NCBI RefSeq assembly: GCF_012931685.1
Contig: NZ_JABANC010000002.1
Coordinates: 248,001-312,000, forward strand
DNA length: 64,000 bases
Direction of reading: 5' to 3'
Source of the DNA: Hanstruepera ponticola
GTDB lineage: Bacteria > Bacteroidota > Bacteroidia > Flavobacteriales > Flavobacteriaceae
A program made the translations under genes and the position numbers. Below, piece after piece: positions 48,020 to 49,544 of the stretch. The notes beneath the pieces are model-generated. The model saw only the letters and a list, made by a program, of their open reading frames with translations, made no database searches and was not told where the DNA came from. The stretch's first letter is position 1. Each line of letters starts with the position of its first letter.

Positions 48020-48068
48020 ATTGCTACCATAATAAGCCGACTTGAATTTGTCAGAAAAAAAGGCGAAC

Positions 48069-48078
48069 TTCGTTTAAC
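48069..48078 (+). repeat. left 10-bp inverted repeat of the SpoU-gene unit
   Basis: TTCGTTTAAC is the exact reverse complement of GTTAAACGAA at 48894-48903. On the minus strand it forms the end of a 51-bp segment (48072-48122) running GCCCAAT, TGATAT, ATATCA, GTTAAAC, which resembles a small attC site. Confidence 0.5.
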
Positions 48079-48146
48079 TGCTGATATAAACAATTAAAAC
48101 AGTTCATATCAAAACATTGGGCTTAATTAAAAAAACTGAACTTTGA

Positions 48147-48764
48147 ATGAAAAACACCGAAACAAAAGAAAAGAGTTCGCTTCGAAAAAAAGCTGATTCG
48201 ATAAAGGAATTTCGTTGTAAGAATTTAATTGCAGTTTTAGAAGAGCCACAGGATTATAAAAATATCGGACGGACGATAAGAAATATAAATGCTCTCGGAG
48301 TTGAAAAATTATATATAGTTGATAGCCGAAATAAAGTACCTAATGACTGGCAAGAAATGCGAACTGATGTTACTTTGACAAAAACATCAGGTTCTGCCAT
48401 AAAATGGTCCTTTGTCAAAAAGTTTAGCAGTACGAAAGAGTGCATTGACCATTTGGAAAAAAACGGATTTAAGTCAATGGTCACTTCACCACATTTGAAA
48501 GGACGAAAAAACATTGTATTACACGAGGGAAAATACACGAAAATGAAACTTGCTGTTTGGTTTGGAAATGAATCAAAAGGTGTTAGTAATGAAGCAATTG
48601 AAAACAGTAAAGCGTGTATTAATATTCCAATGTACGGAATCATTGAAAGTCTGAATTTAGGAACTTCGACTGGAATTGTAATGTATGAAATCACTAAACA
48701 AAGACGTGCATTCAAATTGCGAAAAGTCGCAAAACGGAAAGAAAAACTGAAGAATAAAAAATAA
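48147..48764 (+). CDS. SpoU/TrmH-type RNA methyltransferase, likely acquired
   Basis: This is a 205-residue SPOUT enzyme: NIGRTIRNINALGVEKLYIV (motif 1), VWFGNESKGVSNEAI (motif 2) and IPMYGIIESLNLGTSTGIVM (motif 3). The basic C-terminus (KLRKVAKRKEKLKNKK) fits tRNA Gm18-type TrmH. Nine of eleven glycine codons are GGA, and CGA/CGG arginine codons are frequent, unlike neighbouring pepT. The gene is enclosed by 10-bp inverted repeats and followed by an attC-like element, so horizontal acquisition is inferred. It is a different subgroup from the methyltransferase at 27.8 kb. Confidence 0.9.
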   Translation: MKNTETKEKSSLRKKADSIKEFRCKNLIAVLEEPQDYKNIGRTIRNINALGVEKLYIVDSRNKVPNDWQEMRTDVTLTKTSGSAIKWSFVKKFSSTKECIDHLEKNGFKSMVTSPHLKGRKNIVLHEGKYTKMKLAVWFGNESKGVSNEAIENSKACINIPMYGIIESLNLGTSTGIVMYEITKQRRAFKLRKVAKRKEKLKNKK

Positions 48765-48768
48765 CTAT

Positions 48769-48900
48769 GCCCAACAACGGCTCTAGTTCATTACGTCTAA
48801 AATTCCTACTTGTGATTTCGAGCCTTTTTGCTAAATTTATGGTTACGGCGAAAAATCACAGCTGATAATCAGCAACCAAGCCTTACACAAAACGTTAAAC
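48769..48900 (+). repeat. attC-like structured intergenic element
   Basis: This 132-bp segment begins GCCCAAC, fitting the integron core RYYYAAC, and ends GTTAAAC, fitting GTTRRRY. It contains nested inverted repeats: GGCT / AGCC, TGTGATT / AATCACA (48811 and 48854 areas), and GCTGA TAA TCAGC (48861-48873). It starts 4 bp after the methyltransferase stop, and the next gene's ATG is 5 bp after its end. The size is within the reported attC range. No integrase is in the window. Confidence 0.5.
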
Positions 48901-48903
48901 GAA
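48894..48903 (+). repeat. right 10-bp inverted repeat of the SpoU-gene unit
   Basis: GTTAAACGAA mirrors 48069-48078 exactly. It coincides with the 3' core of the attC-like element and ends 2 bp before the next start codon. Confidence 0.5.
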
Positions 48904-48905
48904 AC

Positions 48906-49505
48906 ATGAAAAAAGTATATTCAGTAGAAGAGTACATTGAAGTTAATAATCATTTTGCAAATGAGTTGTCCGTTTTACGCGACATTATCATTTCAACTGA
49001 ATTAGAAGAAACTGTAAAATGGAGCGCACCTGTATATGCCTTAAATGGTAAAAATGTGGTGGGTTTAGGAGCTTTTAAAAATCATTTTGGTATTTGGTTT
49101 TTTAATGGTGTGTTTCTTAAAGACGAGAAAAACCTATTAGTCAATGCACAAGAAGGCAAAACCAAAGCCCTACGTCAAATGCGTTTTGAAAGCATGAATG
49201 ATATTGACCAAGCGGCAGTATTAGCCTATGTAAAAGAAGCTATTGAAAATCAAAAATTAGGCAAAGAAGTTAAAGCAGAACGTAAAGGCAAAAGTGTAAC
49301 AATCCCTAGTGAACTCAAAACACTGTTTAAAAATCAACCTAATGTTCACGATAGCTTTAAGGCGTTAACGCCAGGCAAACAACGGGAATACTGCGAACAT
49401 ATAGAATCAGCCAAACGAGAGGCCACCAAGCAATCGCGTTTAGAGAAAATCACACCTATGATTTTACAAGGTGTCGGACTTCATGATAAGTATAAAAACT
49501 GCTAG
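48906..49505 (+). CDS. YdeI/DUF1801 family protein
   Basis: This protein has 199 residues from ATG 48906 (MKKVYSVEEYIEVNNHF). The 26 upstream in-frame codons lie in the attC-like element and are rejected. The N-terminal DUF1801 domain reads ELEETVKWSAPVYALNGKNV and FGIWFFNGVFLKD. The C-terminal YdeI helical part reads SFKALTPGKQREYCEHIESA and TKQSRLEKITPMI. The family fold is frataxin-like, and its role is poorly known (envelope stress and iron have been proposed). The ATG lies 2 bp after an inverted repeat, so its native promoter may have been displaced. Confidence 0.88.
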   Translation: MKKVYSVEEYIEVNNHFANELSVLRDIIISTELEETVKWSAPVYALNGKNVVGLGAFKNHFGIWFFNGVFLKDEKNLLVNAQEGKTKALRQMRFESMNDIDQAAVLAYVKEAIENQKLGKEVKAERKGKSVTIPSELKTLFKNQPNVHDSFKALTPGKQREYCEHIESAKREATKQSRLEKITPMILQGVGLHDKYKNC

Positions 49506-49533
49506 TTAGTGGTTAGTGGTTAGTGGTTAGTGG
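49506..49533. repeat. four tandem copies of a 7-bp repeat
   Basis: TTAGTGG is repeated exactly four times, starting directly after the stop codon of the DUF1801 gene. It is a simple microsatellite prone to slippage and non-coding here. Confidence 0.95.
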
Positions 49534-49544
49534 TAAATGAGCAT

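Follow-up and report, generated by a model that had tools for sequence, protein, structure and literature searches.

An attC-type site in Hanstruepera ponticola and a family of integron-like cassette arrays in Flavobacteriaceae

Integrons are considered rare in Bacteroidota: the one complete integron that IntegronFinder 2.0 recorded in Bacteroidetes, besides those in Chlorobi and Ignavibacteriae, is that of Salinibacter (PMC9024848). The integrase of integrons, IntI, bears a patch that has been described as necessary for integron recombination (PMC9668308).

The DNA considered here, called the window throughout, is a stretch of 64,000 nucleotides from Hanstruepera ponticola, a member of Flavobacteriaceae (contig NZ_JABANC010000002.1, positions 248,001 to 312,000). 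A preliminary description noted in it an intergenic element that begins with GCCCAAC and ends with GTTAAAC (Table 1), and a shorter version on the minus strand of 48072-48122 (GCCCAAT...TGATAT/ATATCA...GTTAAAC). Both readings are confirmed, and so is the length of the first element, 132 bp. The element was thought to belong either to a lone, CALIN-like cassette or to a related folded-site system, and there is truth in each idea. It is very probably the attC-type site of a single cassette in a genome without an integrase, and it is one of a family that forms arrays and has a covarying stem. A search of the open-access literature brought up nothing that describes arrays of this kind in Flavobacteriaceae; a subscription paper or a preprint could exist.

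The explanation that I consider very probable, taken as a whole, is that the element is an attC-type recombination site ending a one-gene cassette, that site-specific recombination would have inserted this cassette into an attI-like site of the chromosome, its attC having since decayed, and that it stems from an integron-like system that is common in Flavobacteriaceae, occurs in other Bacteroidota as well and does not use the usual integrase.

The window element and the site it occupies

Table 1. Coordinates of the element and its surroundings in the window
Feature	Position	Strand	Remarks
attC-type site, read as decayed	48769-48900	+	R'' GCCCAAC 48769-48775; R' GTTAAAC 48894-48900; 132 bp
Putative mobile cassette	48117-48894	+	Start TTGGGCTTAAT; end ..GCCCAAC + attC body + CG
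Cassette gene, 205-aa SpoU/TrmH-type RNA methylase	48147-48764	+	Pfam PF00588, E 7e-28
Chromosomal left neighbour, M20 family peptidase (pepT-like), 414 aa	46775-48019	+	Same-locus orthologue in four congeners
Chromosomal right neighbour, DUF1801/OmdA protein, 199 aa	48906-49505	+	Neighbour conserved in G002 and G004
Left part of attI-like site (A)	48037-48116	+	Dispersed family; ends ..CA before crossover
Right half of attI-like site, TTAAACGAA	48895-48903	+	Perfect inverted repeat of TTCGTTTAA at 48069-48077

Four bases lie between the stop codon of the methylase gene and the element. The boundaries of the cassette, which I infer from duplicated cassettes elsewhere whose copies part exactly at GTT, give it a start, TTGGGCTTA, and an end, TATGCCCAAC (TTGGGC/GCCCAA), that are complementary at five of the six variable positions. 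Homologues of the TrmH-like protein are encoded between attC-type sites in one genome (G210) and beside one in another (G057), and both the element and the region 48020-48905 have matches in many genomes of the same family. These relatives and a covariance model show the element to be more than a chance pattern. With the model, which was built here, the window element scores 63 bits (E 2.8e-13), a value owed partly to construction, because the element was among the 65 training sequences.

The nested inverted repeats reported earlier do not by themselves exceed chance: the 132 bp fold no better than shuffled sequence (z -0.4 for the top strand, +0.2 for the bottom). There are two weak interior hairpins. 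The long stem of the family is broken in this copy and has lost several pairs, because its 5' half is of the GGCTAT type and its 3' half of the ..TTACAC type; I read the copy as decayed or chimeric. A check of the bottom-strand fold had been proposed at the outset, and it finds the stem in the family and not in the window copy. Just past the stop codon of the DUF1801 gene, at 49503-49538 of the window, TTAGTGG recurs as a short tandem repeat.

To the left of the cassette lies the left part of the attI-like site, A. It contains a promoter-like pair, TTG (48042) and GAACTTCG (48065-48072), with TTCGTTTAAC at 48069-48078, and an inverted repeat made of TGATAT (48082-48087) and ATATCA (48106-48111). 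The TTG and AACTTCG elements resemble those of Bacteroidota promoters and may act as one. The 11 aligned copies of A agree exactly as far as C(A/G)TT and vary beyond it, where the start of a cassette follows. On the far side of an occupied A, chromosomal sequence takes up again with TTAAACGAA, and the same right flank stands behind lone cassettes in L035, L043, L028 and G002. One A site (L034) is apparently empty and reads ..CTATTTAAACGAATC.

The preliminary description took the segment at 48072-48122 for a second attC site, inverted with respect to the first. This candidate is rejected: the segment is conserved only up to CATT and then varies, and the TTAAACGAA flank follows the cassette. It is part of the attI-like site, and the inversion is only apparent, because the right end of that site is also the start of the cassette. 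In congeners, the pepT-DUF1801 locus holds A with a different cassette in G003 and a partial A with an unrelated gene in G001; in G002 A is shortened, and the cassette there is yet another, with an attC-type site of its own; in G004 no A was found at the locus. Since A occurs at this locus with different cassettes in congeners, the supposed second site is the point of insertion and not an attC. A RhuM-like gene stands behind a truncated A at the same pepT locus in G001:C2 (L094/L116), which suggests that the locus draws different kinds of insertion. None of the A sites was found beside an integrase, and the A site would have been filled in trans.

Arrays, cassette ends and a covarying stem

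Sites related to the window element occur in long runs on the same strand, spaced about 0.5-1.2 kb, with about one ORF between neighbours. One genome (G259, locus L042) has about 25 sites in 20 kb, further series are found in G168, G013, G286, G002 and G003, and inspection of the ORFs of one array (L055) gave about one gene per site. Nearly all sites end in YAAC and GTTR; the bases outside these cores differ from site to site. How the variable bases are related was judged by setting the six that follow GTTR against the six that precede YAAC of the next site, in 114 neighbouring pairs less than 1.3 kb apart. The start and the end of the cassette so defined are complementary at a mean of 5.39 of 6 positions, 103 of the 114 pairs reaching 5 or 6, as against 2.09 for permuted pairs (maximum 2.5 in 2000 runs) and 2.27 for a site compared with itself. 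Such matching is to be expected where every unit moves as a circle and brings its own two core halves along. Duplicated units have the same boundaries: a pair of copies in L042 shares an identical stretch of 890 nt that runs from one ACCGTT to the next and diverges immediately after, and near-identical units in L099, L110/L111 and L052/L115 likewise end at the core. G259 also has a cassette of about 757 bp three times in tandem right behind the integrase (L107:11003-13278) and again in another array (L042:16640-17405).

When aligned, 65 sites (the window copy included) give with RNAalifold a 12-pair stem that has compensatory changes at 9 of its 12 pairs. In a fuller structure of 20 pairs, 89.9% of the cells are paired, compared with 72.7% after shuffling and 27-40% after sliding, and covariation is 0.395, compared with 0.116 shuffled and less than 0.1 slid. 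Recurring features are a spacer that stays unpaired, a bulged position and an A.C mismatch that is invariant or nearly so. DNA folding of 60 sites shows the bottom strand to be the more stable of the two in 55 of them (mean z -4.3). A search of Rfam gave no match except a tRNA.

Of 250 Flavobacteriaceae genomes, 221 have sites according to the covariance model, as do 69 of 247 genomes across the phylum, and an integrase profile matches 161 of the 250. Integrases occur in 158 of the 221 genomes with sites and in 3 of the 29 without (p=2e-10), a comparison confounded by the mostly small size of the site-less genomes. Viral contigs contain one exact match of one attC pattern and none of the other.

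The host genome itself has 33 sites at E<1e-3, so the similar elements that the preliminary description would have looked for elsewhere in it do exist. The integrase profile found no intact integrase there. Two clusters begin behind an attI, and all that precedes each attI of an integrase gene is its final ~12 codons (KQKVMISGK and KQTQQKVLISRK, each running into the stop); no integrase relics were found beyond those codons. Because its attI sites keep so little of the gene, the genome is an integrase-less remnant. Its clusters of sites without integrase (C7:23.5-28 kb, 417-423 kb and 575-582 kb; C8:125-131 kb) are CALIN in the sense of two or more attC with no neighbouring integrase; the window, with one site, is below the default threshold of two in IntegronFinder 2. 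Another type of attI, ..AGTGTTATACATAC followed by GTT, stands ahead of other integrase-less clusters (L151, L156; host C7:408 kb and C6:8 kb). With a window copy that fails to fold, and with searches that turned up no intact integrase, the system is possibly inactive in this genome today.

The array-linked recombinase

The genes linked to the arrays encode Xer-like tyrosine recombinases of about 376-413 aa. Behind the stop codon of the integrase, most often at 23-42 nt, lies attI, a site that ends in GTTR and joins the first cassette. Sequence within 200 nt behind the stop matches the end of the first cassette exactly in 20 of 31 testable loci; as controls, the final 200 nt of the integrase gene match in 0 of 31 and swapped downstream regions in 0.8%. 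The named genomes (Algibacter, Seonamhaeicola, Winogradskyella, Zunongwangia, Algoriphagus, Cyclobacterium, Rufibacter, Flavobacterium aciduliphilum and others) have 44 of their 46 sites on the strand of the integrase and downstream of it. Among 36 other loci (347 kb) that served as negatives, several of them with IntI, there was one match below 0.01.

A tyrosine recombinase with the IntI patch, put forward earlier as something to look for, was not found: the integrase profile has no match in the host genome, and the array-linked Bacteroidota enzymes are patch-less. That they lack the patch follows from the short spacing between the catalytic K region and HxLR, which is 63-66 residues compared with 105-108 in IntI1 and other IntI. 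The integron integrase model gives them 189-219 bits against a cut-off of 265, above their scores with the XerC/XerD models, and two of the recombinases just pass the XerA/integron model NF040815 at 220. Neither the host genome nor 20 relatives have a match above the cut-off of TIGR02249, a model that cannot by itself separate the enzyme, because the XerC/D of all controls match it below the cut-off. In a tree, the IntI that bear the patch form one clade (100/100) and all array-linked Bacteroidota integrases fall outside it.

What these enzymes have, at least all those tested (three of them weakly), is an N-terminal domain of about 80 aa that is absent from IntI and Xer. Modelled alone (pLDDT 89), it finds its best PDB matches in two structure-reading domains: the damage-recognition domain (DRD) of XPB from archaea, with a probability of 0.91-0.99, and HARP from SMARCAL1, at about 0.7. 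Both matches are weak (E 0.05-0.13); sequence profile searches of the domain against HARP and XPB-DRD gave no match. As a hypothesis from the modelled fold, the domain may recognise folded attC instead of the patch.

A recombinase of the same kind, annotated as 'site-specific tyrosine recombinase/integron integrase', is encoded with four downstream attC-type sites on a plasmid of Chryseobacterium sp. SNU WT5 (L243, NZ_CP041688.1). Its presence on a plasmid means that the system can be mobile. Patch-less recombinases with a weakly matched N-terminal domain also turned up in one MAG each of Undinarchaeales, Spirochaetota and Firmicutes, and an attC-type match (E 8e-4) in a Peregrinibacteria contig (L187, L191, L194, L211). 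The system may reach beyond Bacteroidota.

Mechanism, rival explanations and known systems

Read from sequence, the arrays, the cassette boundaries, the covarying stem, the attI beside the recombinase and the missing patch are established. I propose that the array-linked recombinase, encoded directly upstream of attI and in the same direction, is the enzyme, and that it would add cassettes at attI as circles. The attC would act as a folded single strand, probably the bottom strand, cut between G and TT of GTTR, and the HARP/DRD-like N-terminal domain may recognise the folded site in place of the IntI patch. By every sequence test made here the system behaves like an integron, failing on the enzyme that defines one. 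An origin independent of integrons is possible. The stronger claim, that Bacteroidota have a second, independently evolved integron in which a Xer-like recombinase reads folded single-stranded attC through a HARP/DRD-type domain and places cassettes in trans into dispersed, promoter-bearing attI-like sites, I put forward tentatively, as an idea that falls a little short of an even bet.

Could this be a classical IntI-type integron, or a CALIN that descends from one, which annotation in Bacteroidota has simply overlooked? The letters of the cores (RYYYAAC/GTTRRRY), the G^TT boundary, an attI by the recombinase and tandem cassettes are all shared, and the recombinase scores higher on the integron integrase model than on those of XerC/XerD. 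The unmet TIGR02249 cut-off in the host genome and its 20 relatives, the K to HxLR spacing that leaves no room for the patch, and a clade of patch-bearing IntI that excludes every array-linked Bacteroidota integrase together make the classical reading improbable.

Still less credit is due to the two readings that do away with cassettes. A dispersed palindromic repeat, whether REP, MITE or a passenger element like those of IS200/IS605, might fall between genes by chance, would be multi-copy and palindromic and often found at contig ends, as these sites are, and would be at home in a genome without an intact integrase. It is too much to ask of such a repeat that the gene should belong to the unit, the two ends of which covary across about 1 kb, or that the copies should keep one orientation per array in arrays that start at attI beside a recombinase; the matching of cassette ends excludes a repeat that moves alone, and I give this explanation next to no weight. 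A transcription terminator or other RNA structure between genes would fit the intergenic position a few bases past a stop codon. A terminator need not have core sequences that covary at the two ends of a gene, Rfam has no match to the sites, and the units duplicate and diverge exactly at GTT, so that this account too is most unlikely.

Should the cassette reading be right, integron-like arrays with as many as tens of cassettes would be present in most Flavobacteriaceae, and on the Chryseobacterium plasmid as well, and a large unread pool of mobile genes would be opened. The necessity of the patch for recombining folded sites would become testable, as would multiple origins of integrons. Standard tools would miss the enzyme because they demand the IntI patch, and the usual searches for integrons appear to have overlooked the system.

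Integrons, including sedentary chromosomal ones and CALIN (IntI/attI/attC; PMC2727003, PMC9024848), are the closest systems known. Like them, the Bacteroidota system has about one gene and one attC per cassette, RYYYAAC..GTTRRRY cores and the G^TT boundary, an R'' complementary to the cassette's own start, and an imperfect stem with an unpaired spacer and unpaired bases. It also has its attI next to a tyrosine recombinase and forms both arrays and clusters that lack the integrase. It differs in a recombinase that is outside the IntI clade, has no patch, has an extra N-terminal domain and is mostly co-directional with the array, in lone cassettes at dispersed attI-like sites, and in a complementarity of cassette start and end that reaches about 10 bases. 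In the chromosomal integrons of Treponema, too, the integrase is transcribed toward attI in the direction of the cassettes (PMC3607928); those are reported as carrying intI, whereas the Bacteroidota enzymes lack the patch. The complete integron of Salinibacter ruber M1 comes from the same phylum and is set apart by its description, having been found with an IntI-specific profile (PMC9024848) that the present enzymes are not expected to pass. Among XerA, XerC, XerD and XerH, which are also alike, XerA (5hxy) is the closest solved relative by sequence, with a catalytic domain that has no patch; what the Bacteroidota system has in addition are multi-copy cassette arrays, attI and attC sites, and the N-terminal domain. 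The best fold matches of that domain, SMARCAL1 HARP and archaeal XPB DRD, share no sequence similarity with it, and here the domain is fused to a tyrosine recombinase.
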